Of a stretch of DNA of 64,000 bases, positions 1,431-49,100 are shown in pieces. Source of the DNA: Arbacia lixula. Taxonomy: Eukaryota; Echinodermata; Echinoidea; Arbacioida; Arbaciidae. How positions within the stretch are numbered: the first letter of the stretch is position 1; every line of letters begins with the position of its first letter. The notes under the pieces are model-generated. The model did not search any database. It saw only the letters and a program-made list of their open reading frames with translations, and was not told the origin of the DNA. Position numbers and translations under genes: made by a program. The DNA is taken from assembly GCA_963669155.1 (NCBI GenBank), contig OZ022581.1:6958915-7022914 (forward strand), written 5' to 3'.

Positions 1431-4400
1431 GTACATTTACAATAATCATTTATGTAATAGCCTTTTAGTATGTTGTGCTGAGATATAGCAGTGCTCTGGT
1501 CTTTGCAAGACTGAATGTACTTCATGTGAATCTTAAATTAGAGAAACAAACAGAAAATGTAAGGATCATCATAGAGACTGGAATTCTTGTAAAATTAATA
1601 TATTTGTCAAGATATATTACTAATATTATAACAGTGTTATTATTAGTGTTACAGTTACTTTGGACAACTTGAACATTGTGTGACATAACTCAACTGGTTT
1701 TTAAGATTTTATACGCTTTATACCCTAATATGACTTTCATTCTTGGTGTCTGTGGAGAGCAAATTTGCATTAGGAAGGGCTAGTAAGTATGACTTGTACA
1801 CATACTTAGTCAAGGAATTTATGTGCAGATAATTTTCTTAACAGAGTTTATTCTGAATGAAAATAGTAAGATACAATGGTTCCTGAGATCAACCATACAC
1901 ATGACTGTAACCACTTTAAGGTAGATCTTAGCACCATTTTTCATCGCAGGCTCAGTGACAATTATTATTAATTTGTATTCATCTTAGTTATTCATGGCAC
2001 ATTGGAATTAATTTGTATTTATCTTTGTCATATAGTGAGGGCGATGCCATCCAGGTCTTTGTCCGTGTCAGGCCGTCCGAGTACAGCGACACGGACATGG
2101 ACTTCGGCCAGTGTCTGGAAGTGAGACTACCGGACACAGTCATCATGCACTCCAAACCTGAACCAAAGGTGTTTACGTTTGACCATGTGACAGCCAGCAA
2201 TACAACGCAGGTAAGTGATGAATAATTGATTATAAACACATCACAAGAATGCTAATTTTCTTAGTTAATTCTTGGTCCGGCTTTGTACACAAAAATGTAT
2301 ATTTTTCAGGGTCTGCTTATGTGCATGATACTGGCTGCATTTCTCAACGGATTTTTTGTCAAATTTGGTGTGTAAGTGTATCATAGTCAACTCTAGACAC
2401 CTATAAATTTTGGTGATGCTGCCTTCCAAAATGTTCCGCCTTTTACAGGGTCAAAGGTCAACCTGAATGGTCTAAATTTGCAAAAGTGCTTATTTTTCAA
2501 TTACTTTCTTGTTACCCAAAAGATTTTATTCAAACTTGCTGTAAAGGTGTATGGGTGGTCATTCTACACATAAGTATTCGGTGATTGCGCCTTCAGTGTT
2601 TGGATGCCATGTTACATTACTTGTATGTGATCTTTCAGCCACATGTCCAATTTTATTCATACTTGATTTGGAGGTTTATTGTGGGGGGGGGGGGGGGGGG
2701 GGGGTGTCATTCTGCGTAACAAGTAACACTAGTTTTCATTGACAGCGACCTCATTGTTCCAACTTTTGTAGGATGCCATGTCATATTTCTGTTTTTTTTT
2801 CCAGTTTGTGATAACATTTGTCACACAGAAGCAATATTAGAAGGTAAAGCGAGAATGCCTATAATTTATTTATTTATTTTGTTAAAATTTTTTTTTTTTT
2901 GGGGGGGTTGTATATCGCAATGATGGATGATGCGGTGGGTTTAGGGGATACATGTGCTTCGCCGCACTACCTGCTGAGCATTTCTAGTTGATTTTCTTTT
3001 TGTATTTCATTTCACTTATATTTTAACAGGAATCGGTCTTCATATCTGTTGGGAAAAGAATAATTGAAAGCTGCGTTAGCGGGTACAATGGAACTATATT
3101 TGCCTAGTAAGTAATTCATTACAAGTAAGTACATGAGGGCTTAACAAAGTTGTGAGATGGTATTGCCATTTGTCAACCCGTAATATGATTATGCTGTCCA
3201 CACTTAGACAGTATTGTTTGTATGCTACCAGTTCACTTTACATTCTTGAATGTTGAGATACTTTGATATGAAATAAATATTTGTTTCACAGTGGTATTAA
3301 GACAAACTTAAAGGTTAACTTTTGCCTCTGACTGATTCCATGACTGAGGGTATATAACAATGTTAATGTTTATTACGTGTATGTAGCTCAATATTGTTGT
3401 CCTAGACGTATGATTTTTTGTTGTTCTCATATCACAATTGTTTCAAGAGTATGTTCTTTCTTGCAGTGGTCAGACAGGATCGGGCAAAACTTTCACCATG
3501 CTCGGTAAGTTAATCTTCCATGTACCGTAGATATAGGTCTTAATCCTATAATTCTTAAAAAACTTTATTTCAAATTCATGAGTTACTTTGACTGTTTTTC
3601 TTGGATTCCAATGATAGAGATTATGTGTCCTTTCATCATAACACAGCCACTGTGCCTTGACCATCGCTCTCATTCTTGTTTGATTTTAAGATTTTCTTTT
3701 TTAACCCATGAGGATAGACCAGGGCCCCTGTAACATAAAGATTTGTGATCAATCGCAAAATGGCAATGCAATGCCCATTCAACATCACTGTTGCATGTGC
3801 TTTTTGTTCAAAAGACTGACCAGTAACCAATCAGAATTTGTCTTTCAAATTTGTGATTGATTGCAAACCTTTATGTTACGGGCCCCAGAAGTCCAAAACT
3901 TATATAGACACAAGAGCACTTTAATCCACACGGCCCAATCAATGGTTCACAGCAGCTTTCGAAATGATACTTTGAAAGAGTTGTGGCAAAAAGCAGACAA
4001 AGTCATGTTGAACGCTATATCTGGAATTCTTTTTTGTCATTGATTCGCTGTCTCCCCATCATTGTTTTCCCAGGACCATGTGAGGATGGGAATAACTTCC
4101 ACCATGAGCTGAGAGGGATCATCCCAAGGAGCTTTGAATACCTGTTCAGCTTGGTGAACCGAGAGAGAGAAAAGGTATGGAGTTCAGTTACATTTATTCA
4201 CTCTGACATCGTAGCCAAATATCTAATACTGCAATTTAGATGTAAAAATCAAAACATTTAACGGCCTCTAAACATTTGAGTGAAGAAAGAATATGATGCA
4301 CATGTGGTAAGATTGTAAAACATGTCAAAACGGCTAGACATCTACAATCGTTTCTGCATGACACAGATGCTTGTAATTGTTGCATAATTTGATTCAGCAG

Positions 4401-7400
4401 CCATATGTTGTTGCATCAAATATGTTGTTTGTGCTCTACCGGCCACATTTCTCTGTGTATTCCTTCATTTTTTTCTTTATGGGGGTCAGGTGTAGCATAG
4501 GAAAGTCTAGCCACAAATAGCTTTGGTGAGAGTACCCTCAGTGTCCAGACTCTTACAGGAAAAAAGGTGAAGATAGAAAGGAATGCTAGAAGTTTACATG
4601 ATTGATTAATTTTCCTAATATGCCGTGTAACTATATATGATTGGTAAAAGACAACTATAGGTTTTGGTAGTTGCTTCTCTTGTTGATCCATCTTTCCTGA
4701 GATCAAAGGTCACCCTGACCAGATGAATATTTGTTTTAGGTGACCCTTCTAAAGAGGGTTGTTCTCCTTCTTCCTTCAGCATTGAGACCGCTTTGAGTTC
4801 CTGTGTCGCTGCTCTTTCCTGGAGATGTACAACGAGCAGATCTTTGACCTCCTGGATCTAGCTTTTATACACTTCAAGTTTATTTTAGGGTTCTGTTCCC
4901 TTCTAAAGATGGTTGTTCTCCTTGTTCCTGCAGCATGGAGACCGCTTTGAGTTCCTGTGTCGCTGCTCTTTCCTGGAGATGTACAACGAGCAGATCTTTG
5001 ACCTCCTGGATCTAGCTTTTATACACTTCAAGTTTATTTTAGGGTTCTGTTCCCTTCTAAAAATGGTTGTTCTCCTTGTTCCTGCAGCATGGAGACCGCT
5101 TTGAGTTCCTGTGTCGCTGCTCTTTCCTGGAGATCTACAACGAGCAGATCTTTGACCTCCTGGATCCTGCCTCCATGGGGCTCCACCTCAGAGAGAACAT
5201 GAAGAAAGGGGTGTTTGTTGACGGGCTCATCGAACGAACTGTCAGTAGCGCAACTGGAGCATATGATGTAAGTATCATGGCAGGGAAATTGTCCATACCT
5301 CCCTCTCAGACCACAACTGATAAACAGACCTCAAATTCACTCTCGCCCAACTTCTTGGAAATAATTTTAAAAAAAAATGTTGAATGTGGCATATTTTTTG
5401 TCACCTTTTCTTATCTGCGAACTCTCTAATCCTTAATACATTGTGTTTCAATTCTTTCACTTCAAGGAATACAGAAAATGGTAACATTATTATAAATAAG
5501 AACATCTATAGATATTTTATCATCTACAGTAATCAGTGCCGAAAAGAAAAAAAATGCTTTTTGTCTTAAGTCGTCCACTGCTGCTTGTTTTACCCCCCCC
5601 CCCCCCTCAAAAAAGAAAAAAAAAATGGTACAGAAGAAATTCCCCCAAACAAGTGAACATCTTTACAGACTGTCCTAATTTTTACAGACTGATTGGCTTT
5701 AAAAGACACTGGCCTTTATAGATAGGTTTGACCACAGAAGGATCCATGGGTAAATGCCCTTTTTCTCCCTGTGTCTGTCTCAGGTGCTAGTAGCTGGTTG
5801 GCACAATCGTCGCGTGGCAGCCACCTCCATGAACAGAGAGAGCTCGAGGAGCCACGCAGTCTTCACTGTATCCATTGAGACAAAGGTACGGGCACCCACT
5901 GCTGCCATGCCATCCAGTGCAATTTTGTTGTGTTGAGTAGTACAATGTAAATGATCAAATATGAAGTTGCTATTGTTCTCTTGAAAATATGATTTTTAAA
6001 ATCAAGAAGAATCAAGAAGAATAGCATATTTTTCATAATTTGTATATTGATGTGCAGTTAAGCAAGAGTGGATATCAACTCTTTTTTAACATACAATTTT
6101 TATGCCTCCGCCACGAAGTGGCCGGAGGCATTATGTTTTCGGGTTGTCCGTCCGTCCGTCCGTCCGTCCGTACGTATGTCCGTCCGTCCGTCCGTCCGTA
6201 CGTCCGTCCGTCCGTCCGTCCGTCCCGAATCCGTTTAGGCAATATCTTGAGAACCGTGAACCAGATTTGCTTCAAACTTGGTACATTTGTGTATTGCATA
6301 AAACCAATGAAGTGTGTAAAATTGGGGTCAAATCTGATTGAGGTCAAAGGTCAAAGGTCAATGAACATTGTGAAAAATTGCCAAAATTGACCTTTTTCAC
6401 ATTAAATCCAAATCCAAGGATACAATTCTCATCAAACATGGTACAAAGATGGATCACTACTTGGAAGTAGACTGGTGACATTTTGGGTAAAATTCCTGAA
6501 AGTTTAGAGGTCAAAGGTCAATGAACTTTGTGAAAAATTGCAAAAATTTGACCTTTTTCACAATAAATCCAAGTCCAAGGATGTAGTCTCATTAAACATG
6601 GTACACGGATGGATCACTACTTGGGGATAGACTGATGAAATTTTTGGTAAAATTCCTAAAAGGTCAGAGGTCAAAGGTCAATGAACTTTGCCAAAATTGG
6701 CTAAAAATTGCCCCAAACTTTATATTTTTCACAATAAATCCAAATCCAATGGTACATCACCAACTAAACATGGTGCAAAGATGGATCACTACTTGGCGGT
6801 AGACTGGTAACACTTTTGGTGACATTTCTCAAAGGTCAAAGGTAAAAGGTCAATGCACTTTGCAAAAATTTGCTATTTTTCACATTGAATCCAAATCTAA
6901 TGATTCAATCTAAACAAACATGGTACAGAGATGTCTCACTTCATGAAGGTAGACTGGTGAAAGTTTGGGTAAAATTCCTGAAAGGTCAGAGGTCAAAGGT
7001 TTATGAACTTTGCCAAAATGTGCTGAAAATTGCCCCCAAATTGATACTTTTCACAATAAATCCCAATCCAATTATGCATTTCAAGAAAACATGGTACAAG
7101 AATCACAAGGATACAGGGATGGATTTAGACAGACTGGTTAGATTGGAAGTCAAAGAAGTAAGAGGTCAAAGGTCAAATGAACATTGCCAAACTTCGCTAA
7201 ACATAGAAAAACAGAATAAATGGTATTTTCATTTCACATAGGAACTGGAACATTTCCAACCAAACAAACAGATTTTCTGAAAATAATCTAAATAGAGCTA
7301 GCAAAGAGGCGGAGGCATATTTATCGACTGCGTGGCAGTCGAATTGCTCTAGTTTTTATTGTATGTCTAAAGATAAAACATGGTGTCTCTATTCAAAATG

Positions 7401-10400
7401 TGATACAAATGCTGTTGATATTTTTTCTTGTTTCTTTTTTGTGTAGAGTATTTCAGGAACCACCTGGTGGATCTGGTAGGGAAGCAAGCGGCACTAATTT
7501 CAATATTTTTATTGTTCCCTCTTTCAGGAGGAGAAGGTGGTGAGCGGCAAAAAAGAGCACTAGCTCTTATCTAAATTCCTGATCTTTCCTTTCCTCTGGA
7601 GAAGAAGGCCAGTGTGTCCAACATCCGGGTGTCCCAGCTCCATCTGGTGGATCTAGCGGGAAGTGAGCGACAGAAGGACACCATGGCTAATCTCTATATT
7701 CTGATGTTTCCTTCCCACAGGAGAAAAAGGCCGGTGTGTCCAACATCCGGGTGTCCCAGCTCCACCTGGTGGATCTAGCGGGCAGTGAGCGGCAGAAGGA
7801 CACCATGGCTAATCTCTATATTCTGATCTTTCCTTCCCACAGGAGAAGAAGGCCGGTGTGTCCAACATCCGGGTGTCCCAGCTCCACCTGGTAGATCTAG
7901 CGGGCAGTGAGCGGCAGAAGGACACCAAGGCCGTCGGGATGAGGCTCAAGGAGGCAGGGAGCATCAACAAGTCACTCTCCATCCTGGGCAACGTCATCAT
8001 GGCGCTGGTGGACATTGCCCACGGCAAACAGAGGCATGTTCCCTACAGGGAATCCAAACTCAGCTTCCTGCTTAGGGTATGTTTTTCTCTCATCATCTTC
8101 CTCCCGATCTCTTTTTGTATGTTATTTTTTTTTTTTTTCTCTCTCTCTCTATTCCCCTGTTTTCTTCTCCCTCTCTCTCTCTCTTCATATCCTTTTAGCT
8201 TTTCCTCCCTCTTTGTCTTTCTGTCTGTCTGTGTCTTTCTTTCCTTCATCCACTTTCCCTCATTTTCTTTCCCTTCTCATCTTTCACTCTGGTCTGACCT
8301 CCCTTTTTGTTCCTCTTTAACTTTGTCTTTGTCACTTCTCTCTCTCTGCATCCCTTTTCTTTCCTTTTGTTGCCCTTCCTCCATTTTCCTTCCTATTCCC
8401 CTTCCTCAGTCTTCCCTCTTTAATACCTTTCGTTTATACCACTGCTATTCTTCTTTTTTTCTTCTTTCCTCTGCTTTGTCTTCTCATGCTCTCTTTCTCT
8501 TTCTTAATGAATGATGCTATTTTACTGAAACACTTTTTCATTTATATTGGTATACAATAGTAAAGTTGTTTTTGATAATCATTTACTGTATAGGATTCAC
8601 TGGGAGGGAATGCAAAGACATACATCATTGCCAACGTACATCCAGACGCCAAGTAAGTTTGATTTTGTATATAAGGCATATGCCATATTTTGTGTGTATA
8701 GATTTTCTTGCAAAATTGTGCTTCATGGTCAAGTAGTTGAATGTAATGGGTAGGAGTGGTTGAGACTTTGAGACCATACTCACCAGAGTGCCCTATTCTT
8801 GATTAATTTTAGAATTGCAGGATGGAATCATCTCAAAGTGATTAAATCACTGAACTTAAACAAAACCCGGACCAGGTGTTGACGAATGGCGAAAGTGAAT
8901 GGTTCTATGGGATGAAGTCATTTTAAATACTTACCCTTACCTTTGATTTGAAACACATCTACTAAAGTACACTACAGCTAATTGGCATCGGGAAAGGAAA
9001 AGGGAAGAAAGGGAAATACCCGCAATTTTAAACCATGGTATATTTTGTCCAGTTCAGCATGAAACATGATGCTTTTTAGCGTCATGTTTCATGCTGAACT
9101 GGACAAAATATACCACGGTTTAAAACTGGGGCTCCTTCCCTTTCTTTCCTTTCCCTTTCCCTATGCCAATTCCTTTCAGCTGTTGTGTATAACACGACCA
9201 GCTGTTGTTGTTTTTCAACCCACCCTACACCTCCTCAAATTCTACTGATCGCTATAATTTTGCCTAAAGTTAGTTTGCAGTTCTATTATTGGGAGGGAAG
9301 TTCTAATACAGTATCTTCTTCCATTTTCTGTGTTTTTTTACAAAATTTTTGCTTTTTTGACTTGCAAAAGAGACACCCTGTCTTTAGAAATAATGTTGTT
9401 GAGGAAGGAGATGGTGATAGTGATCATGAATGAATAATGTGATATTTCAAACATATTTGCACAACTCTTTCTCTCAAGTTTTTTCTCCTTTAATTCATGG
9501 TTCATTCCTAACTGCAGATGTTTTGGTGAAACTCTTTCAACTTTGAAATTTGCCAGAAGAGCCAAAATGATAAAAAACAGAGTAAGTACAAAATGTTGTA
9601 TCTACACTCACTCTGGTTACTAATAATCATGCAAAAATGTCTGAGACCTAGGATTATTTGAAAGCCACATAAACTGAAAACAGTGTTCAGCATTTTCATA
9701 CCCCAAATTATTTCAAGAAAACTTGATGCAAAGATAATCCATCCTGGAACATTCAAGCTAGTGTACTTTGAAATGAAAGTCCAAGGTAAGTGGTTGCTTA
9801 TCTGGGCAAATGTGAATAATAGCACAATCATAATCTTCCAGTGCATATAGTATTAGTCACATATTTTGAGATTTGTTCCAGGAAAAGTAATAACGCTTGC
9901 GCATGAGTTGGCCTTGATTGAAATAATGTGCTTTGTGTAGACACTGCTCAGCTGAGTGTATCTCATCACAACAATGCAGTACTGATTCTGAGAATATTGT
10001 TCACATAACATTCTCATTGTGAGGGAGGCACCATGGAGGTACGGTCATGCAAGCCTATGTGCGCTTCGTAGTTAGAATCCATTCGGGACCAAGTACATGT
10101 AGCACAAATATGTAGTTTGGTGCTGTAACTTTTGATATGAACTGCTAAACATAATAAAAAATACAGCACATGAAGGATCATAAATTTCTGCATGAGGAAT
10201 CCATTTTGAGCATTTAGTGATATATATTACGTTTGTAATGATTATTCAAAGCAAAATGGGTATCAAATGATCACTCAATTTTCAACTTGGCAATGTACTG
10301 AAATGGTTTAAATCCCACTTTTGCTCTTCAAATTGGCATGATTATTGTTCTTCAATGATTTTGACATCTTGTTGATGTATAGTGGAACTTGCATTCCGTT

Positions 10401-13400
10401 TTCAATTGAAAATTTCATGAACAAAATAAATAGTGTTGCCACTTTAAAAGCCAAAGGTGATTGATCAGTTTTGCTCTTAAAAGGCCTTTGTCCAGAATGA
10501 GTCACGTAGACTCTAACTTTCATCCTTGTGGTCAAGTACAGACCCATGGAGCTGTCCTCACCCAGTGTGATGTAACAGGATCTCCCAACCTTATTCCCCA
10601 CACTGATAACCCCAAACTGGCAATATACCTCCATGACTTCCAATTTTGTGTGCATTATGTGACATATAAGATCATGATTGTTTCAGGGCAGCATTTTGAA
10701 ATTATGTCTAGCAGTCTTGCAGGGGGAACAATGAAATTGATTTTTGTCTCGCCCACCGGAGGTGAAGGCGAGACTAAGGGATCCAAATGGCGTCCGTCCG
10801 TCGTCCGTCCGTCGTCCGTCCGTCGTCCGTCCGTCGTCCGTCCGTCGTCCGTCGTCCGTCCGTCGTCCGTCACAAATGTTAAAGTTTACCTGCAAGACTC
10901 TCTTATGATCCATAACTTCACATGGGTTGCTTGGATTACAACCTAACTTGGGTCATAGATGCACTGGGGGTACCTTCATGTTATGGTACCGTTGGAGGTC
11001 ACAGGATAAGGTCAAAGGTCATTTGAGGTCATACGTTAAAGTTTACCTGCAAGACTCTCTTTTGACAAATAACTTCACATAGGTTGCTTGGATTACAACC
11101 TAACTTGGGTCATAGATGCACTGGGGGTACCTTCATGTTATGGTACCGTTGGAGGTCACAGGATAAGGTCAAAGGTCATTTGAGGTCATACGTTAAAGTT
11201 TACCTGCAAGACTCTCTTTTGACAAATAACTTCATATGGGTTGCTTGGATTACAACCTAACTTGGGTCATAGATGCACTGGGGGTACCTTCATGTTATGG
11301 TGGCGTTGGAGGTCACAGCATAAGGTCAAAGGTCATTTGAGGTCATACGTTAAAGTTTACCTGCAAGACTCTCTTTTGACAAATAACTTCACATGGGTTG
11401 CTTGGATTACAACCTAACTTGGGTCATAGATGCACTGGGGGAACCTACATGTTATGGTGCTGTTGGAGGTCACAGGATAAGGTCAAAGGTCATTTGAGGT
11501 CATACGTTAAAGTTTACCTGCAAGACTCTCTTTTGACAAATAACTTCACATAGGTTGCTTGGATTACAACCTAACTTGGGTCATAGATGCACTGGGGGTA
11601 CCTTCATGTTATGGTGGCGTTGGAGGTCACAGGATAAGGTCAAAGGTCATTTGAGGTCATACGTTAAAGTTTACCTGCAAGACTCTCTTTTGACAAATAA
11701 CTTCACATAGGTTGCTTGGATTACAACCTAACTTGGGTCATAGATGCACTGGGGGTACCTTCATGTTATGGTGGCGTTGGAGGTCACAGGATAAGGTCAA
11801 AGGTCATTTGAGGTCATACAAGTTTACCTGCAAGACTCTCTTTTGACAAATAACTTCACATAGGTTGCTTGGATTACAACCTAACTTGGGTCATAGATGC
11901 ACTGGGGGTACCTTCATGTTATGGTGGCGTTGGAGGTCACAGGATAAGGTCAAAGGTCATTTGAGGTCATACGTTAAAGTTTACTCGCAAGACTCTCTTA
12001 TCACACATTACTCATCACATGTTGCTACAATGGCAATCAAACTTGGATGATGGATGCACTGGGGGCACCTGCATGTTATTGTGCTGTAAGAGGTCACATG
12101 ATAAGGTCAAAGGTCATTTGAGGTCATACATTAAAGTTTACTTGCAAGACTCTTGGTGAAGGCTTCCTAACTTGTGCACAGAATTGTGTGAGCATGTGTG
12201 AGCATTACTGATGTAGATTTAGGCAAACATTACTCATGCACATTTATGCAAATTTATTCAAAGTCACTATTTTGCACCTGATTTTGATGTTGTCTGTTTA
12301 AAGTTGCTTATTTGTTTGTTTCAGTTTTCTTTTGCGTAGCAACAGAGATCGCGATATTTCTGGTTATTTTCGCAAGTGGGCGAGACACAATATTGCTAAT
12401 GCCTTGTTTTAAAACTAAGTTCTCCTGCTTTTACCATCGAGTGTGCCTATGTGACACAAAAATATTGAGTGCATGCATTTTCTATGTGTTCTTTGTGCAA
12501 CGTATAAACGTAAGCAGCCAATGGTTGTCCATTTATGCAGATGAAATGCACAAAGACTTGAGTGTGATGTCATGAAATCAACGTCCTGAACCATCCTAGA
12601 TGCACCTAGATGATTCAAGATGATCCTAGACCTTATGAGAAAAATGCAATTGTCACAAGGGTAATCTTGTTATTTGTGAGCGCTGAATCGCCTGACTGAG
12701 TCCAGGTGTAATTTCTGCCCTGAGTTCTAGAGTGTGCTCTGCTTCTTGCCTCCTCAGGCTGTGGTGAATGAGGACACCCAGGGGAATGTGATGCACCTGC
12801 AGGCTGAGATCCGCAGGTTAAGAGAGGCCCTTGCCCAGCAGTCCACGGGTTCAATACCCCACGGTCCAGGTGCTCCTGGCGGAAGTCAGGGCGGGCTGAA
12901 CGGCAGTGATGCAATGGGTAAGAAATCAAGTTTTAACCCTGGGCCCCAGGAGGGAAAAGACTGGACCGAACCTGGGACGTGTAAAGAATATTCCCGGTTC
13001 CTGGAGCGGAGCGGATCGGAAGCCGGAAAACCGACTCCCAGGGTTATCAAGTTTTCTAACCTTAGTCGTTAAGCACTGTGTCCTACGTTGAGAACCACTT
13101 AAACCATCATCATCTTCCTTTTCTTTCATTTTGCATGGATGAGAACTCCCATTTTCTTCCAATCTGTAGCTTTCTCTGCTCCTTATGTTATTTTCTTAAC
13201 TTACATAGTCCATCTTCATTATCCTGTTCTGTCACTTTGGATTTTGTTCTTTTCTCTCCTTGCTTATTGTTCTGGTTATTATGCTGATATCGTATTCACC
13301 TTGAAAAGATACATATCCACTATAATGCATTGTGTCCATATGTTCTATATTGAATGAACTCTCAATCTGGTTAAAGCTTTGTCTTCTGCAGAGGAGTGCA

Positions 13401-30895: not shown

Positions 30896-30944
<49 letters not shown>

Positions 30945-31087
30945 ATCATCATCATCCATTTTCATCATCACCATCATCACTATTATCACCACAACCATCA
31001 TCATAATGATCACCAGCATCACCATCATTATCCACCATCAATCATCATCATCATCATCATCACCATCCATCATCATCATCATCACCA

Positions 31088-31123
<36 letters not shown>

Positions 31124-34100
31124 GCAGTTAGGGTACACGCACCATTACAATGTCGCATAAGAGGAAAAATTGGTCTTCGACTTCACCCCGTCCATCATAT
31201 ATCAGTGCACCGGAGCTCGATCGGAGCAACGCCATCGAGCCCCGGCTTAAAAAAACATTGAAATGACTCAGGCTTAATTGTCATCTTATATTAAAGTAGA
31301 TGTTGGCTTTCCTAATACAGTGAAACACTAAATAGAATCAAGTGTGCTTGCTCAGCGCACTAGCCATTTATGGAGTTACATGCACGGTGAAGGATGTTAT
31401 GAGGAAAAACAAAATCACGTCTTGGGGAACTATCCCCACTTAACATATTGCAACAGAAACAAATCAACTTTCCATTTATTTTTCATGATATCTTCACTAT
31501 GATGTCGATGTAGGTTGAGAAGATGCGTTCTGAGGCTATGGACATGAGCAGCCAGCAGAAGGAACTACTCAAGGAACTTCAAGACCAGTCTGGAGAGCTC
31601 ACACAGCTCCATCAACAGGTATACACACCAGACATCAGTGGGGCTTAGGGTAATGTAGCCCCTGTGATAAAAATAAATAGTTCCTTGTGATTTTTTGTTC
31701 TTAATTGGGTATAATGCATTGTATGGTTGTTGATGTCTACTACATAATATCAGGCTTGAAAGTAGCTTGAAGTATATTGTCTGCCAAACATATGAAATTT
31801 AACTGTCTAGGCTCTGCTTGTTTGCGATTTTATGGTAAGAGTTTATCTGTCCAAAAGCCTTGTGCTGTGTATATGATATTGACACCTGATATTGCAGTTG
31901 CAAATCTAAATGAAAATATCCTGAATATTGGTGTCATTAGGTGAAGGAGATGGAAATTCAAGCACTACAGTGACATCTTGATAAAAGATAGTGTTTATAA
32001 GTGTTATTGATATAAGAGTTGCCAATCTGAGTGAAAGGAATGTATCAGGGAAAGAAGATGGTGGAGGAGACGAAGTAACTAGTGATTTCTCTGAAAACAA
32101 AACTTTCATGGTGCTTATCTGTACGAGATAATTGTTATGTGTTCCAACCAGGTGAAGGAGAAGGAGGAGGAGATCGAATCTCAACGAACTGACTTCCAAT
32201 CCCAGATGCAAGCCATGGAGGCCCAGCTCGAGGAAGCCCGTACCAACCTCTCCACTGTGGTCGTCGAACTTGGCGGTGCCGGCGACGACATCGAGCCAGG
32301 TGCCAAGAGACGTCGCCGGACACTCTCGGTTGAGGACCAGGTTCAGGAGCTGGAGTCATATCCTTTCATTCCGTGGTCGACGATGCCGGTGTCGGTGTCG
32401 GCACAACCCATTAGGGTTCAGGCAAGTGCTAGTAGGGCAGTGTTGGATCCTTTGCAAAGATTCGAAGTGACCGATCCAACGCCAGTGTTCAGCAGCTCAT
32501 TGAAGTCCTCATGATTGCTCACTTTGACCGAGGCGCTTTCTCTAAACTGAAAGAATAATTTGTTTTGCCTCCACCATGAGGAAAGTGCTCAATATTAATA
32601 TCCACAGGATGGGAAATGTATATTGCAGAGATATGCCTGACATGGAGAGTGTATGATGAGTATATTTCATGTATTTTTGAATGTGCACCGTTAAATCAAA
32701 TTTACCTATATATGTGTTAAAGTGAACAACAATATCAATATATCAGATGAAATATTCATTACTTTTCTTCAACATAGAGTACTGAAGTGTGACATCATTT
32801 GAGAATGTTATCACGGTAATTGGTTATAAACTATGTGGATAGAGCAAACACCTGTGATCATAGTAGGGATTCTCATCGTGAATGCTTAACACCAGCCTGC
32901 TAGACAATGTTGAACCAGTGAAAGTCTTACTTGAGTGATGTTACCAGAAGCCGGCGTAACAATGGATATTGATGGCACCACTTTGTTTTTCTATTGAACT
33001 TTCTATCAACATTTCAAGTTTGGTATGAAGCAGTCTAGCTGGATTCTTAGATCAAGTACAGTTCAACATGTAGACTGTGAGCTACCTGAACCCCCCACCC
33101 CCTCCCCCCCCCACCCCTTAGCCACAATTTATTTTTGTGTTTTTATCTTAGCCAGGATCTTCAGCTGTCAGAATCTGCCTGTTTGCCTTTTATCATTTAG
33201 ACACTAATTTTGTGTTTTTAGGCCACTATATCAGAAATATATATATGGCAATTTCTAATATTTCTGTAATTTCAATAGTTTTGGCACCATGGTGGTGTCA
33301 TAGCAATGGTGCTCTTATGCATGATTGTTAACACTTAAAAATACCTCAATTTTTGTTGCTATGATTCTGATATCTTGATATTCATCCTTTAAGGAACTGG
33401 GATGTGGCTTTGAGTTGCCTTTGAACATATATTTGAATTGTTTACTAAAAAATTGCCTTTTTTGTGATTGTTTTCATGGCAATAATCTTTTTTTGCACAT
33501 GATCGTGGCCTTGAATGGCTTAAATTTCTATCAGAATCAACTGGGCAACTTGTGAAATTTTGTCTTTTTATGTTCATATTTGGCAATTTCGTAACTTCCT
33601 CATATTAAAAAAAAAAATCATTGACATGTAGCCATGGTAACAGCCCTGGTGGCCACACCCACTACCAGTGCAATGGCAAACAGGCAGATACTGAAAGCTG
33701 AGGGACCTGCCTAACATAAAAACATGACTTAAAATTGTGGCTAAGGAGGGGGGGGGGGAACTTTTCAGATTCTGGCCCATGGACTGATGATTGTTCAACA
33801 AAACAAATACTATCATGGTAAACCTCAAAACAGGGATGTGTTATGGAAGGATAGGAAGCAACTTTCTTTCTTTGAACCTATGTGCCAAGCCGCTGAAAAG
33901 TTATGGTGTTCTCAACAGGTGCTGTTCAGGTGTTTGAACAATTATGAACATTGATTGTGTGGCAACGGTTTCTCAGAGAGAACAAAAGAAATGTACAGTC
34001 TTATTTCGCTTGTCCCGTTCTGTTAATGACATTAATACTTCCCTGAGCACAACAGGTATCAGCAAACACAAATAAACAAGTTTTTCAAGTAAAATATCTC

Positions 34101-37100
34101 TGCTTCACGCAAACACACACAAACGCCGTTAATGATAACACACAGCTTAATATATCATTTTGAGGGTGGTTGAATCTCCCAAATGCACAAGTTGTCGGAA
34201 AGTGAAGAAATTGGTCAATTTTGTAATTAATACAAATAGCTTATATGTCCGATTTTTAATGATTTCTCAATACTTTTCGAAGCAAAAGCAGAGTATTAGG
34301 ATCTGTCATTATCTGCCGTTAACTTCCTTATAGTTTGCAAATGCATTTGTCAAAAACAAAACGTCTACAGACAAATGGGAAATTACAGAAATTTCTTTTC
34401 AAGTTGACATCAGCTAAATAGGGACCTTTCGATTTGGACGTGCCACCAGGCGTCACCGTGAATGACGTCACTTTTACGCACCGCGCATGCGTCAACGTCG
34501 ACCCCTTGGCTCAACACCCCTCGGCTCAACGCGTTCACCCAGGTTTTCACCGACCACCCAATTCACTCGCGCCGGGCTCATCCCGTGCTGTCTATGACAT
34601 CATACTCCTCTCGGTATGGACGGTGCCGGAGGAAGATTATGCTGAGTTACAGCAAATCAGTGGGAAGTTCAACTATTTTTCCTTTTATTTTTTTAAACAA
34701 AATATAAATACAGTTGTCCTCAAAATTATTCATACCCTTGTTAATTTTTATGATTTTTTATTTTTGTGATGAAATGAATGCATTTTGTCAAGTGTGTATA
34801 TCAGTTATATGTGACCAACATGTGAAAGAATAACAACAATACACAATTCAAGAAATTCATCATTTCAGGGGTATTTTATTCATGGATTTTCAAAAAATGC
34901 CATGTTCAAAATTATTCATACCCTAGGTTTACTGAGTCCAATGTCTTTCTTTAATAGTCAATAGCATAGCCTTTGTTTCTTATGACTGCTTCTAGACGGT
35001 TCTTGTACGTGTCCACAAGCTTCCTGCATGTCTTCTGGGGGATGTTGGCCCACTCTTCCTTGGCAAAAGCCTCAAGCTGGGACAGGTTGGTCGGTTTCCT
35101 AGCCAACACTCTGGTCTTCAAGTCTCGCCACAAGTTCTCAATTGGATTCAGGTCAGGACTCTGACTTGGCCATTCGAGGACGTTGACATCATTGTCCTTG
35201 AACCATTTCTTCACTACCTTGGCGGTATGTTTTGGATCATTGTCCTGCTGGTACTTCCAATTAGGGCCAAGCTGGAGTTTCTCAGCGGATTCCTTCACGT
35301 TTTCATCAAGGATCGTGATGTAATCCTCTTTTCTCATGATTCCTTGGACCTTGACGAGGTTGCCTGTGCCACTGGAAGAGAAGCATCCCCATAGCATTAT
35401 GTTTCCAAAAGATGCTATGTGTTTGACAATAGTTTAACATTTGGTCAACAAAAAAGGTATTTAATCCATTGGAACATCTTGAAATAACTATAGGACAAAG
35501 ATTAACACATTCTCAGGAAAGGAAAACAATGGATACTATGAAGAAAGAACATTTTTGTTGAGGTATTGTCAGGGGTATGAATAATTCTGAACATGAGGGA
35601 AAAATAACTTTTGGACTTATCTATTATTATGCAAATGAAGTTTAGCCAACTCATATGTGGATTTGTGCATAGCAACAAGTAGACAAAAGATACACAGGAA
35701 GTACCAACATAATAGCTTTTACAAAGGAAGAATCTAACAAAGACTGTTATTTTCAATGGGGTATGAATAATTTTGAGGACAACTGTAGCTATATTACCAG
35801 AAAGTTCATCTTCTTCTCACTTAACATGAGCACCACTGACGTACCAACTACAGCCCGTCAGGTACCTGTTTGCTCTGTCGTCTACCAAGTTGCAAATGCA
35901 CACTACAGTCCCACATATACATTTTAACCGCGCCCGTATACGTATTGCCACCAGTGGGGAGATCAGTGATTGCCACGCGGGCCACCCACTGACCTCCACC
36001 GATGATGGCGCGCGCGCTTTTCACAGGGGCCATGACGTCACTACGTTGACTAGACGTGACGCCTGAAATCGAAACGCATTTCAGGAGCGGCTCAACGTAG
36101 GGAGTAAACGCGTTGACATACGCCTGCCGCCGGGCGTCACATCACTCTCGTTCACCCAATCGAAAGGTCCCTAATGTCGGCTCGGCACATGGAACATCAA
36201 AGCATTGTCATGATTATGGAATTCTTTTGACATTCATGAGCACGCTTTAGAACCCATACCGATGTTTGAATGTATTATGCTCGAGTTTCTACTCCTTCCT
36301 ATAACACTTCCCTGCTCAAAGTATGTCTGACCAGCAACATCGACTGGAATCAAAGTGCATTCCACCCATTGAAACTGAATCACTGGAGAAAGATATGTGT
36401 ATGTTAATCTGTTAATAGGCAGTCCCTGTAACTGACACTTTCCCAATGGTGTGCATAAAACTCTGTTCATGCACGCACTACTTAATTTTCTTAAGGGAAA
36501 CAGACATGCAGTTTGCGTACATTAGTAGTTGGTATGTCTGGCAAACCTTGGGCAAGCTTTGTGGCTGACATGACCTTTGTTAATTAACTATGAAAATAAT
36601 TTTCATTTTTCTTCAGTACATACATGTGTATTTCAATATGTTAATTATAAGGGTCTTTTTGGTTGTGATTTGCTAGGCAGAGGTGAAAAGGGGATGATGT
36701 AAAGAAAAATGTAACAAAGGAAAAAGCATTACAATGTTGATATGTCAATGTGGAAGGAATGCTGTTTGTGAATATTGAAGTGACTGGAATTTGATGCAAG
36801 TTTCACATGAATTCCCATTGTTCCCTTGCTTGAATCTTGTTACAATAAAAAACCAACTCTTCTTTTTTTTGTACAATTGAAACTATGTTTGGAATGCAGG
36901 AGCTAAACAATCAAACATTTTCCCTGATTTTTGAACGCTAACAAATAATTTCTACGAGGTGAAACAAGAGCATCCTGTTTCCAAAGAACATTCTTTATAA
37001 ATCTATTAACAGACATGATGCACACAACAATGGCCATTGTGTACCACACCTGTCAATCCACTAGCAACTACCAATACAGGTGTTATTAATAATGCATGAT

Positions 37101-40100
37101 GCTTCTAGCAGGAAAAAAAGTTGTTGGTTGGCATGTGTGATGCACAATGGCCATTGTTGTGTTCTGAATTAATTGTGTGATACAAACAAAAATGTTTAGA
37201 TCCAGATTTGTCCCAAAGTGAAAAAAATATTCAGTGAAAAATGAAAAATGAAGTGAAAAATATTCAGATGATTATTTTCAAGAAAAGTAATTGATGAAAT
37301 GTCACAATACCTGCTTCTAAAAAAATTAACATCCCTTGATTTTATGATGTGTTTCTTTTCCCCCTTTCATAAAAGTGTAAAAAAAAATAACACCTAGCAG
37401 AATACCTGGCGACTATACTTCTGTGTGTACTATGTAGATTTCATGGATGCATTTCAAGCAATGATTACCCAAAAGACTGTCCGGCTAGCAATAACTTCTA
37501 GATTGCACTCATTGAACCTAATAGACCATTTTTGTTATGTAAAACATGGAAATGTTATTCACATCGTACAAACAATACGTTACTAATGGGAACCCCAAAG
37601 CTTGTCTGAGGTTTGTCCAGTAGCAACAACTAATAGATTAAAAATGCATTCCATCCATTGAATCTGAATGACAAGATACAGGTGAATGCAATAACACATT
37701 ACTACGCAGCTAGGGGAAAGTTGTGAATACATTAGGAAAGCGGTCTATCATTACAAACAGGTGAAGGTTGCAACTTGTTTGTAGATTTCATTACATTACA
37801 AGACACAGTGCTGTTATTGAGCATACGGCTTGCATTATCAGCCAGTGATTCTGTACTGACTCAAAGGGGATTCCCAGCTGTATGATCAGTGTAGCGCAAT
37901 GCCTTTTTATAAAATTGTGCTGAGGTGTTTCTGGCATTTCATCAGCTATTGTATTTTATCCCCCTTTTGACTAAACAAGTGAAATAAACGTGTTTTTCAT
38001 AGATACAGAATACAAATTTAGAGCTAAAATTGTGTGTGTATCAGATAATGAATTCAAGACACAACAATGACCATTGTATGTTAGATCTGTCAATCCACTG
38101 GCAACTTCCATCACAGTGTCATTCATAATGCATGATGCTTCCTGCAGAAACGATATTGTGAGTTGATATGTGTGATGCACAATGACCATTGTTGTGTTCT
38201 GAATAAATGATCTGATACATACACATTTTTAGATCCAAATAAGTTTTGTCCAAAAGTCTTATTTGATATTCACAGGGTCAGTAATGGTACAAAAAATGTA
38301 ATTGATTAACTGTGACAAAATCTATGTCTAAAATCTTTGACATCCCTTGACTATATGATGTGTCAAATTCAGTTTGAATAGAGTTGTAACTTATATTTGA
38401 TTATTTTTCAAAAGTGTCAACACCTAGTGCTTGGTAACTAGGCCTTTTAGTAGCTCACTAAGGCCTACCGGTAGTTTGATGTGAAGTAAGTTTTCATGAA
38501 TATGGCCCCTGGAACCCAGAATGTTCCAGGTGATGATAGTCAGTGTTGAAGATGTGTTCCAAAACTTGATATGATATGTACATTTTGTTGTTCTGCAATT
38601 CATATTTCTGTGAAGGTTTGTAACACTGTGGTCTTTTTGTTACACAGGCTTTAAATTTAAAAGGGACCATTTGAAATTTTGTCTGTGTAACAAAAGGCCT
38701 TGTTCATTGTGTAAAAACAGTGTTATTCATGCATATTTAGCAATGAGATAATAGAACTTAGAAGAAAGATTGGAAGTATTAATATCCCAAATATGTTTGC
38801 TTGCTGAACAGTTAACATCTTTATTACGATCTGTTTAACTTATTATTAACATGAATCATTGTGTTCCAGGCAAGCTGCTGCATGTATTATTTGTGCTAAT
38901 ATGCAACAATGGCACCCACAGAGTGATACATTCCAGATCTATTATGATCACTCTTTATCCTCTCTTTACCATTAATGAGTAAAAGTTGGGTTGATTCCTT
39001 GACTATAATCTCTCCCTCACGCTGCAAGAATCAGAGAAGCGATTTAAGGAGCTATCTGTTGAGTTGGACGCCATGCGGGAAAAGCTGACTGAAGAAATGA
39101 GAGTGTCAAAGGTTTGTGATTATTGATTGTGTTTACTTATTTTCATCTGAATGATTTCATTCTTTGGTTACGGTTTTGGATGCCATGGAAGGAGAGCTGA
39201 TTGACAAAATGAAAATGTCAAGGGTTTGTAATGGATGATATGTCTCTTATCTTTCTTGTTTGTGAAGTTTTATTTGCATGATTTCATTTGTTGATTTTGG
39301 ATACCATGGCAAGAAAGCTGAATGAAGAAATAAGAATGTCTCAGGGTTGTAATGGATTACATTGCACTGTATGAAAATTACCTGCACTGAAAGACACCCT
39401 ACTCATAAAGAATACAACTTTTGTCTCCCTTGAACGGTCTCTATATGGGCCTGTCTACAGTTATGGGGTACATTTCTGTTACATTTACTGTAACATTTGA
39501 ATAAATCTCTTAAATTCCAATTATTATTTTTTTTTGTCTCTTGAATAAACCAGCCAATGATGATAAAATATCAAAGAAATGTATTGATTTGCACTTTACA
39601 AGGTTTTGTATGCTTCAGAAAATTTGCCCCGTACAAATTTGCCATAGCACGTTGGTAACGTGAGAGACGGGTTTGTAACACACTCGTCTGTCCCGTTACC
39701 AATGTGCTATGGCAAATTTGTACAGGCTTAGTTTAGAAATATATAATAAATAAAAAAACATTCAGAGCAGGATTTTAGCTGAAGTTGTTTTGGAGGAAAT
39801 TAATTCAACACTCTGTCATATTTTGGTGGTGCAAGGTGGTCATAATTTCAAATGATTCAGTTATGCCAAAAATATCCCTTTACTGTAGAGATCCCCATAC
39901 ATGCTGGTTGGACTTGTAAAATCATGTATTTATTCCTTTTTATCTTATTCCTCAGATGAAGGCTGATGAGTTGGAGGAGGCCCGCCTGTCAAGGGAGATC
40001 CTGGCCGCTCAGCACCAGACCCTGAAGTATGAACAAGAGGCTCTGACCAATGAGATGAGAGAGAAGTAAGTCAAATTGCCACAATGGGAGAGTTTGTGTG

Positions 40101-43100
40101 TGTGTGTGTGTGGGGGGGGGGGGGCGGTGTGGGTACGTGTCTTTTTTCTGAAAAGAATAAATCTAAACCTTGGAAAATCTTGGCTAAATGTGTGCCTTAT
40201 TTCACTACTAGATGTTACTAGGTGTTAAAAAAAGACACTTTTGAGAAATAATTGGTAATGAGTTACAACAAGATTGAAGCTAAAATTTACACATTACAAA
40301 GTCAAAAGATGTCAAAAGATTTTTTTAAGCAGGTTTCCTGAGATTAGTACCTCCACCACAAAGTGGCTGGAGGCATTATGTTTTCTTGTTGTCCATCTAT
40401 CTGTCCCGAATCTGTTTTTCACTATATTTTGAGAACCGTTCACCAGGTTTGCTTCAAACTTGGTACATGTGTGTATTACATGAAACTAGTGAAGTGTGTA
40501 AAATTTGCTTCAATTCTGATTGAGGTGAAATGTCAAAAGTCAGTGAACTTTGTGAAAGAAAAGTTGACCTTTTTCACAATAAATTCAAGTCCAATGGTGC
40601 CATTCCAACCAAACATGGTGCAGAGATGAATCACTTTATGGAGGTAGACTTATGCCATTTGTGGTAAAATCCTTGCAAGGTTAGAGCTATTTGAACGTAT
40701 TTAATGTAAAACAATATTGATTTCTACATTGTGAAACACAAAGAGAACCTCAGTTCTTGGAAGAAGTGGATGCTCTGAAACGTGATATGAATTGTATAAA
40801 GACGAGTTGTGTGAATATACATAAAATGTTCTGATTTTTAAACAATATTGATTTCTACTCTGTTTAATACAAAGAGAATTATATTTGAAGGTAGAAGTGG
40901 ATGCCTTGCAACGTGATGTGAATCGTGAAAAGACCAGGTGTGTGAATGAAACCTTACATGTTATGATATGAAAACAACATTGATTTCTACTTGGTTTAAA
41001 TACACAGAGAATCACAGCTGAGGGAGGAATTGGATGCCTTGAAATGTGATATGACTCGTCAAAAGGCTAGCTATGTGAACATGGAGAGGGAGAAGGATGA
41101 AGCCACACAGAAGCTCTACTCCATTCAGACAGCGTAAGTTCCTGTAGGGTCTCAATTTACTCCTTCTAAAGATTTTTAAAGGAGAACGAAACTTTGCGTA
41201 TCACTTGAATTGAATAAAAGCAGAAAAAACAGAAAACTAGATTTGTGATATTTTGAGAAAAATCAGACATATTTCAAATGTGAGGAAGTTGTGAATAATT
41301 GAGAATCATGATTACGAGCACTGATTCCTGAGCAGTAACCTTCATGGGCAACTCAATTGATCCAAAATCATGTAGTGTGCGGGATTGATACCGTTTTTGG
41401 GTACCATGCATGACAAGGCAATGCCCAGAGCAGCACTTGCCTGCCTTTGAGTTAGAGAGCAAAATTTATCAAGTACCGAAGTGTGAAGTCATTTGAGTAC
41501 AGTGTCAAGACAACAGATTCTAAACTCTGTGGGTAGAGCAAGCAGCGGTGATCACAGTGGGGATGCCAATTGGGAGACCCCGACAGTAGCCTAATAGACA
41601 ATAACAGACCTTTAACCTCTAACTGCAGTAATTTTGTTTAACGCCATATGTCTTGACGACATGATCATATGACGACACCATTTCGTCACTCCATAGAATA
41701 TGTTCTTTATGAATGGTGGTTGCTTCAAATGTTTATTGTTTTATTTTTTTATGTTGTGGACTTCATAATCCCCGTCCTCATGCTTTCTGTAATCTTATAT
41801 ATATATAAATATATGTTTTTGGTTGATTTTACCCAACAGGCTTGATCAGGCTAAAGCTAATGAGGAGATCCTGCAAGAAAATATGGACCAAGTCATGGAA
41901 GAACTGGACAGGTATGAATAAATGAATGAATGAATGAATGAATGAATGAATGAATGAATGAATGAATGAATGAATGAATGAATGAATGAATGAATGAATG
42001 AATGAATGAATGAATGAATGAATGAATGAATGAATGAATGAATGAATGAATGAATGAATGAATGAATGATGGTATGAATAATGAGTGGAAGGAATTATGG
42101 AATGAATAATGCAATGATTTATGAAATAAATTAATAATGAATGGAATGAAAGATAGAAAGAAGGATGGATTGAAATGATTGAAATGAGTGATGAAATGAA
42201 GGATGGTATGAATAATATAATGAATGATTGGAAGGAGTGATGGAATCAATGATAGAATGAATGATTGGAGGGAGTAATTGAATGAATGATGGAAGGATGT
42301 AGGATGGAATGTAGGATGGAATGAATGATTGGAAGGATAGAAGGAATGAAGGATGGTATGTAGGATGGAATGAAGGATGGAAGGAGTGATGGAATGAAGG
42401 ATGGAAGGAATGTAGGTTGGAATGAAGGATGGAAGGAGTGATGGAATGAAGGATGGAGTGAATGATGGGAGGGTGGAATGAAGGATGGAATGAAGGATGG
42501 ATGGAGTGATGGAATGAAGGATGGAATGAAGGATGGAATGGATGATAGAATGAAGGATGGAATGAATGATTGGATGGAATGAAGGATTGGAAGGAGTGAT
42601 GGAATGAATGATTGTAAGGAATGATGGAATGAATGATCGGAAGGAGTGATGGAGTGAATGATCGGAAGGAGTGATGGAATGAAGGATGGAATGAAATATT
42701 GGAAGGAGTGATGGAATGAAGGGTAGAATGAATGATTAGAAGGAGTGATGGAATGAATGATGGAAGGATGTATGATGGAATGAAGGATGGAAATAATAAT
42801 GCAAAGATTTATAGAAGTAATGACAATGCAATGATTTATAGAATTGATTATAATGAATAATTGAAAGGAATGAAGGAATGATGGAATGAATAATACAATG
42901 ATTTATGAAATTAATACATAATAACTGGAATGTAAGAGACAAAAATAATCACATAGTTTTAATGGGAAAGTTGATGTACAGTAAGTGAAACTTAAATGAG
43001 TGAAATACCAATATCATTAAATAATCACTGTCAGTGTGTTATCTCATTGCCTGTATGATTGATTGTATTTGATTGATGACTAATGGAGAAGTGGATATTG

Positions 43101-46100: not shown

Positions 46101-49100
46101 CATTGTATGAATTATAGTGCTACGCGTAGACTGCAATAGTTAGCTATTATGTGATTGCTAGCTATACCGATCACGAACTAGCTAGCTATTTCGCCACATT
46201 GGACCTTGTTGGTGTGATCACTTGTAAGATATTTAATCAAATTTAACCAAACATGGTACAGTGATGATATTTGACAGGTCAATTAATTGATTACATTGCG
46301 GATCAGAAAGGTCAAAGGTTATGGGTCAAGTTCAAAGTGTGTAATTTTCCTCTTTACGTGTTAATTTGTGAAATATTTTACCAAATATCACCAAATTTGG
46401 TACAAGAATAAATTTTGACAGTTCTCTATCAATTAAGTTTTATAGCCACAGCCATATAGCATATGGCATTGAATAATGCACTTTTACTATTTAGAGTTCA
46501 TGACAATACTTTAGTGACTGCACAGGGGGATGGAAGCATACCAGTCTATCGGGTGAGCATCTCTATGTTGTGATTTCTTTGCCTTTTAGGAGCACATAAA
46601 GCTGAAGGAGGAGATGGATGAGCTAACCAATCAGAATGTGAAGCTGGTGGGCCATCACAACCACAAGCAGCGCATCAACTACCACCAGAAGGTCAAGGTG
46701 GAGAATCAAGTCCTCAAGGAGGTACGGACATTTTATGGCTGTCACATGACCCAGCTAGATATATTTCACAACTTCTCGCCCCAGGGTCTATTGAGTACTG
46801 TACTCACAGATTTTCATATCCCGTGGGAAATTTGTCTCATGTTAGTCCAAGAGAAGATTTGTTACTTGCTTATTACTTTGTTTGGGTTGTTGTCAGGTAT
46901 CATGACAAAGGGAGCGAGGAACTGCTCAGACCCAATGAATGAGGCTCCCAAATATGAGGGCCAACATCTAGACAACAATATGAATAAGCCTCTTCAGAAC
47001 AATAAATGACTTATGAATTTGGATAGTGCTTGCACATACATGCTAACAAAAAAGAAGCATTTTTATTACAAACAAAAATATGAGATGTCACAAAAAGGTT
47101 TGGGGGAACTTAGGAAATATTGACCCCACCAATGATGAGGGTCAACAAAACAGGTGAATTTGTTCAGGGGAAAAACAACAACAGTATAATCTCTTGCCAC
47201 CCATGTGGTGAATATGAGTAGATGATCATTATATTAAATCATAGAGATTGATGAGGAAACTTTCACACTTATAGCTTTGGACCAGTTATTGGCATGGTTA
47301 CTTTTTACTACTAACCATATTGTTTGGCCTAGAACATACAAACAGTGACAGAAACTAATCTTTGTTTTTGACTACAATACTGCACCATATTACCTTTGTT
47401 AAGTCTGTGTATGACCCCCCCCCCCCCCCCCACCTCACGCTACGCTCTCTGTGCAATACATGCCATTGACCCTGTGCCAATTTTTTTCAGCACTTCGCCA
47501 GATTAGTCATTGAGCAGTGGTTGGTATATTTCAAATTGGTAAAACCTTTTATACGATGGTGTAGCTAGGAAATATTATGTATAAAAGTTGTAAAGAGTTC
47601 AATGCACTTTTTTGGGATGCTGTTTTCAGTGCAGCCAGAGCCTGTAATCTTAAAACATGTCTGTAACTATTCAACCTATGTTCCTTTCAACCCTTTTTGT
47701 TGCTTGTATACATGTTTTTGCATGCATAGAAACACTCTTGTTTATTACTGCATTAAGGTCAGGTGTAGCAGTGGATTTAAGCTTTCCTATGGTGCCAAGT
47801 TCATTTTAGTTTGAAAGAGACTCTTTTTAAAGCTGTGAGAGGTTCCCTGGGGAACCTCTGGGGAATATTGGCGAAAGACATTCACTCTTTAACACAGAGT
47901 TGAAGCAAAAGCTTCAATATTTTGGTCACATTGCAAGGAGAGATGGAGAAAATCTGGAGAAAGTTGCCCTGTTCGGAAAAATGGAAGGAAAGAGAAACAG
48001 GGAAAGAAACATGTCAATATACCACTGCTACTCAAAATCTCATTGTTGATACGAATGGAGAGCCTTTATCCATGGGGTCACAAGTACTCAGATATGAGTA
48101 GAACGACGACAATGATGAGGTTCCCTGATTTACAGAAGAGCAGGATGTGTGGCCAGCGCATGCATGCCTAATGAGCTCCTTACAGTAGGGCTGGGGTAGA
48201 TTTCTACAGAAGACTTCCATGGGTATGACCTCATCTACATGAATAGGTTATGTTTTGTCGACATGTGTTACCAATGTACGTACATGAATTTGCCTGCCAT
48301 AGACTCTAATCTTTCTTTGGTATCTGCAGGCCTAATACCAGTTGAATTTAGTTTAGAAAAAACCTATTGTGGAGCCAGTGAAAGGGCACTTTATGAATGA
48401 ACAGGGAGTGACAACCCAAACCACTTTTAAACTATAGGCAATTACGGAGTGGATCAATTGAAAACTTGACTAACCTTTTTTTTTTTTTCACTTTTTCGCT
48501 TTCCTTTCTTTTATTTACCCCATACGTGGGTCATTTATCTGAACGAATACAACCACATGGTGCTACCGAAAGTTTTACTATTTTCTTAATAGTATTTATT
48601 AGTACACTCTCACCGTGGAAACATTCAAAGAACATTTGACAAAGCTTGTAGCACAATAAACAGGACAGGAATGGGGTGTTTCAGACAATAAAGTCACCAT
48701 GTACATGAATGTGTTGGATTATAAATATTGCTCTGAACCCCTCAAAATCAATAAAGCCACCATTTCCAAGCACACGATGGATATATTATAAACATAGCTC
48801 TGAACCTCCTGAGGCACTGTATTATGGTGAATCAAGTGTTTAAAAAAAATATTGTTTGTATCTTTGTTCTCCCGTCAATGACATATGCATCAGAAACATG
48901 GTCTTTAACAACTAAAATAGAGAGAAAGTTGGCCGCTGCACAACATAACATGGAGCTAAGTATGCTCAACATCACTTACAAAGATCGCAAAACCAATAAA
49001 TGGATAAGGGAGCAGACCAAGGTCAGGGACATAATGAAAGTAATCAAACAACGTAAATGGAAATGGGCTGGCCATGTCTCCAGAAGGAGAGATGGAAGAT

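Follow-up and report, generated by a model that had tools for sequence, protein, structure and literature searches.

KIF15 and its predicted AT-AC intron

We analyzed a 64,000-nucleotide (nt) stretch of the Arbacia lixula genome (assembly GCA_963669155.1, contig OZ022581.1, positions 6,958,915 to 7,022,914 of the forward strand; hereafter the window, numbered from its first letter). It holds a gene, well supported by its predicted protein as KIF15 (kinesin-12), whose coiled-coil tail appears to be interrupted by a phase-2 AT-AC intron of the U12 type at 32358-39020, at about human residue 1165. We put the probability of this intron assignment at roughly 94%.

A tblastn search with an approximate human KIF15 sequence, also the reference for all alignments to human KIF15 below, placed exons for the motor, the stalk and the C terminus on the + strand between 2034 and 46721; save for weak matches due to chance, their order is that of the protein. 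Among solved structures (best 60 of 91 matches to the motor domain), the top four chains were all KIF15, at 523-539 bits versus 286 for the next kinesin. A long coiled-coil tail, collinear with the human protein, extends to the C-terminal zipper region, where 46602-46721 aligns with human residues 1329-1368, the start of the leucine zipper and TPX2 region. From about 21 to 43 kb, tblastn matched the stalk weakly or not at all in places; the tail comparison covers those stalk exons that could be resolved, a part of the total, and the last matched exon stops at human residue 1368.

Sequence elements of the intron

U12-type introns carry the 5' splice site consensus RTATCCTTT and the branch site consensus TTCCTTRAY. 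On the donor side the sequence reads TC/ATATCCTTTC at 32358 (slashes mark splice boundaries), in context GAGCTGGAGTC/ATATCCTTTCATT, and begins with ATATCCTTT, while TTCCTTGAC stands at 38995, close to an intron end that reads TTCCTTGACTATAATCTCTCCCTCAC/GCTGCAAGAATCAG in context, its final CAC finishing at 39020. The terminal dinucleotides, AT (32358) and AC (39019-39020), are an accepted pair for U12-type introns. From the presumed branch A at 39002 to the last intron base is 18 nt, and joining 32357 to 39021 in phase 2 gives GAG TC/G CTG, so that the coiled-coil frame stays open. The original prediction had named KIF15 as the host gene and claimed a full U12 consensus at both sites, an AC end 18 bases past the branch A and a frame restored by the join TC/G; all four points held when they were re-examined. 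Phase 2 also accords with a report that minor introns tend to avoid phase 0 (PMC10639083). We infer that splicing in the cell takes place at exactly 32358/39020 and is carried out by the minor spliceosome.

Table 1 Features of the KIF15 gene and its predicted AT-AC intron in the window
Feature	Positions	Strand	Remarks and basis
KIF15 motor-domain exons	2036..12869	+	10 exons, joined; no in-frame stop
KIF15 exon upstream of the intron	32152..32357	+	ends ...VQELES, phase 2; acceptor ...CCAACCAG/GTG; frame continues from exon 31514-31618; alignment to human KIF15
Predicted AT-AC intron, U12-type	32358..39020	+	6,663 nt; splice-site sequence, motif counts, rival enumeration, spliced alignment
Putative U12-type 5' splice site ATATCCTTT	32358..32366	+	fits consensus; U6atac pairing
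First in-frame stop upon retention	32512..32514	+	after 51 full intron codons
Transposon remnant in intron	34701..35795		about 1.1 kb; 37-nt inverted ends, about 95% alike
Putative U12-type branch site TTCCTTGAC	38995..39003	+	presumed branch A at 39002
Putative 3' splice site AC	39019..39020	+	earliest AC or AG past the branch motif
KIF15 exon downstream of the intron	39021..39111	+	donor AAG/GTTTGT; alignment to human KIF15
Following KIF15 exon	39956..40065	+	U2-type acceptor and donor; alignment
KIF15 C-terminal exon	46590..46721	+	alignment to human KIF15

Motif counts and spliced alignment

To gauge chance, we simulated 200 first-order Markov sequences and took the expected motif counts from them. 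The + strand of the window carries ATATCCTTT at three positions (8187, 32358 and 53041; 0.5 expected) and TTCCTTRAY followed within reach by an AC likewise at three (17060, 38995 and 52635; 0.9 expected). Taken singly, neither motif is rare in the window; what is rare is to find both, each at the proper exon end. A first-order Markov model of the window gives a probability of about 0.003 for ATATCCTTT falling within the 363-nt open stretch, and of about 8e-5 for TTCCTTRAC accompanied by an in-frame AC adjoining the following exon. Scored with approximate U12 weights, the proposed donor reaches 14.3 bits versus 8.3 for the best other U12 donor within the intron, and the proposed branch site 13.8 versus 9.4; elsewhere on the + strand the donors at 8187 and 53041 and the branch site at 52635 score equally high on these weights. 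We set aside the copy at 8187: conserved motor exons on either side define a GT-AG intron (8077-8593) that contains it, although weaker branch-like sites occur downstream of this copy. The copy at 53041 is past the last matched KIF15 exon, and the only strong branch site nearby (52635) lies upstream of it.

We then aligned human residues 971-1260 to 30400-40100 by spliced dynamic programming at three intron-penalty settings, with approximate U12 and U2 weights and a prior of 5.3 nats against U12. All three settings selected 32358-39020 as a U12 intron at human position 1165, and with U12 sites switched off the exon 39021-39111 was lost in every run. The protein made by the AT-AC join scored 139 against human KIF15, versus 118-124 for the four rival joins tested and a maximum of 128 among 200 shuffles, and its alignment is gap-free at the join.

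Matches to minor-spliceosome components in the same genome

Searches of the A. lixula genome revealed matches above the Rfam cut-off to all four minor small nuclear RNAs (snRNAs), with counts that are lower bounds: at least one U12 (118 bits), at least three U11, at least one U4atac (98.6 bits) and at least 20 U6atac, six of them above 125 bits. The host genome is predicted to carry U11, U12, U4atac and U6atac. Some of the weaker U6atac matches may be pseudogenes. CENATAC (CCDC84) gave four matches, all on a single contig and following the order of the profile; a TAG interrupts one of the four. An Rfam scan of the window itself at gathering thresholds returned no match.

The snRNA sequences were taken by direct reading, and the U11 locus is one base off the short human motif. 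The U6atac segment ATGAAAGGA is complementary to TCCTTTCAT (32361-32369) across nine contiguous bases, a pairing that extends past the usual consensus. This 9-mer has three copies on the + strand of the window, and the 12-mer ATATCCTTTCAT has one. The U12 of this genome contains GAGTAAGGAA, which we take to be its branch-binding stretch.

Weighing the U12-type assignment

Several observations count against a U12-type intron at 32358-39020. Its support comes from the DNA sequence of one species, and the branch site has G at a position where A is commoner. The predicted U12 duplex with the branch site is unexceptional, its energy being equalled at 181 of 9,141 sampled window positions, as is that of U11 with the 5' site (2,075 of 9,141). 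In the most stable U12 duplex predicted, the unpaired base is G39001 and not A39002. No processed KIF15 copy showing the junction was found: a joined 160-nt query matched just the two exons in the 607-Mb genome. A whole-gene alignment with lenient penalties took 32358 as a U12 donor but paired it with an acceptor at 32793, and it placed a further, spurious U12 intron at 34966-35076; we discounted this run because it contained many spurious tiny exons, and used the stiffer regional runs instead. The spacing of 18 nt departs from the optimum of 11-13, and the ten consecutive pyrimidines at 39009-39018, just before the AC end, depart from the usual lack of a distinct pyrimidine tract in U12 introns (PMC3584512). 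These last two traits are tendencies, usual for U12-type introns and not defining; the features named as defining in the same review are the 5' site and the branch site (PMC3584512).

The original prediction also held that the heptads could not be reproduced by any GT-AG pairing. Combining 46 GT or GC donors in the open stretch with 11 AG acceptors yielded 179 in-frame pairs. The claim proved correct for the best 12 of these, each of which removes coil residues or adds a proline-containing stretch. The top-scoring pair, at 7.4 bits, describes an ordinary GT-AG intron from the donor CTA/GTAGGG at 32432 to the acceptor CAG at 39034, whose product would carry a 25-residue insert in place of LQESE. 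Its sum is lower than that of the gene's lowest own donor plus lowest own acceptor (10.9, with medians summing to 21.4), values that are self-scored. When own sites were scored by leave-one-out they fell to 2.2 for donors and -0.7 for acceptors, and two of 21 own donors and four of 19 own acceptors lay below the 32432/39034 sites, which makes the pair weak, not impossible. Because leave-one-out scores run lower in this way, site scores alone are insufficient against it, a further point on the debit side of the U12-type assignment. The pair nevertheless places prolines in the coil and aligns with KIF15 at 122 versus 139, and it would make the U12 elements a coincidence; we regard it as very improbable.

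Just as improbable is an arrangement of two introns flanking an unseen exon, each intron using one of the proposed sites. A short exon might evade a weak coiled-coil alignment; such introns would have to rely on an inner U12 donor of at most 8.3 bits and an inner branch site of at most 9.4, versus 14.3 and 13.8 (approximate weights), and the KIF15 alignment has no gap at the join that such an exon would fill.

Fainter still is the case for a GC-AG intron from the donor CAG/GCAAGT at 32422, which outscores every other donor of the open stretch (5.9, with a 7-bit penalty of our own choosing already subtracted). This donor is in phase 0, where acceptors of the same phase score -6.7 or worse, whereas the two best acceptors are in phase 1; with the acceptor at 39036 its product aligns with KIF15 at 124. 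The aligner did take 32422 under lenient penalties with U12 sites off, but with inner acceptors and without the exon 39021-39111. Removal by the major spliceosome as a U2-type AT-AC intron, a kind known from SYCP2 and TAF2 (PMC8280824) and one that the pyrimidine run ahead of the 3' end would suit, is just as remote given the full U12 motif at the 5' site and the U12 branch site near the end.

Length, repeats and other features of the gene

At 6,663 nt the U12-type intron is long for its gene: the 14 other KIF15 introns bounded at both ends, the set used for this comparison out of a larger number in the gene, span 339-3,176 nt (median 824). Within it, a DDE_3 transposase fragment (- strand, 34954-35433) lies between the 37-nt inverted ends of the transposon remnant, 88-nt inverted arms pair at 33103-33759, and two copies of a repeat are found again near 59.6-59.9 kb. 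Summed from comparisons within the window, about 2.6 kb looks repeat-derived. The intron had been described as long and full of transposons; the length stands, and "full" overstates the case because about two fifths of the intron looks repeat-derived.

It had also been proposed that this length and transposon content may make removal of the intron slow and rate-limiting for a mitotic motor. Nothing in the sequence supports this idea. Its basis is general: splicing of U12-type introns has been reported as three- to five-fold slower in vitro and some two-fold slower in vivo, and the same review mentions, as a suggestion, a model to this effect (PMC3584512). Across species, the lengths of minor introns are reported to track those of major ones (PMC10639083).

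Elsewhere in the gene, KIF15 exon edges are tandemly repeated (154 bp x 2.7 at 4744-5166 and 122 bp x 3 at 7570-7931), each unit comprising an acceptor and the 5' part of an exon, with extra copies that have no evident donor. By eye, the exon that follows the AT-AC intron has its 3' part repeated as well (about 118-120 bp x 3, 39061-39360), and 31952-31980 may be a partial copy of an exon start. Further tandem arrays in the KIF15 span measure 157 bp x 8.2 (10878-12153), 120 bp x 5.8 (22167-22857), and an ATGA-rich array lies at 41914-42792.

Relation to known introns and possible consequences

Of the minor introns in the human genome, about one in four is a U12-type AT-AC intron, IPO5 intron 21 being an example (PMC8280824, PMC7367187). 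The KIF15 intron resembles those of animals in combining the 5' sequence ATATCCTTT with a TTCCTTRAC branch motif close to a terminal AC, in a phase other than 0, and in a host genome with matches to the four minor snRNAs. It differs from them in its branch-to-end spacing, its pyrimidine run and its length relative to the other introns of the gene. It also resembles the A-type introns that depend on CENATAC (PMC8280824) in its AT-AC ends, its place in a spindle-assembly gene and the CENATAC matches in the genome.

The main text of the CENATAC paper (PMC8280824) mentions neither KIF15 nor any other kinesin, and no link between KIF15 and minor or U12-type introns was found in the open-licence literature, a search that had supplements and intron databases outside its range and therefore gives no proof of novelty. 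The evidence for the KIF15 AT-AC intron is well supported at the level of the sequence, and it points to a member of a well-known intron class; because minor introns occur in many genes, the surprise for specialists would be small.

If the intron is handled like others of its type, U11 would bind its 5' splice site and U12 its branch site, with U4atac and U6atac acting afterwards, as in the general pathway. CENATAC may promote its splicing, as it does for the AT-AC subtype among other A-type introns (PMC8280824). Upon retention, the first in-frame stop would come ahead of the leucine zipper and TPX2 site, which in human KIF15 occupies residues 1359-1380 (PMC3919264), so that the probable outcome would be decay of the transcript or a motor lacking its tail anchor. 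That the cell uses such retention for control is conjecture. A built-in switch, in which low CENATAC or minor-spliceosome capacity leads to retention, KIF15 disappears or ends short of the tail that binds TPX2, and minor-spliceosome activity thereby tunes spindle assembly, strikes us as a long shot.

Gene predictors limited to GT-AG and GC-AG introns may truncate or garble the KIF15 tail, as our regional spliced alignments did with U12 sites off. In human cells, CENATAC loss causes retention of AT-AN introns together with chromosome congression errors (PMC8280824). If the intron is what it appears to be, a mitotic kinesin would count, in at least one animal, among the genes dependent on the minor spliceosome, and a reliance of KIF15 on the CENATAC machinery, if true, would offer a natural test of whether the link between CENATAC and congression recurs elsewhere.

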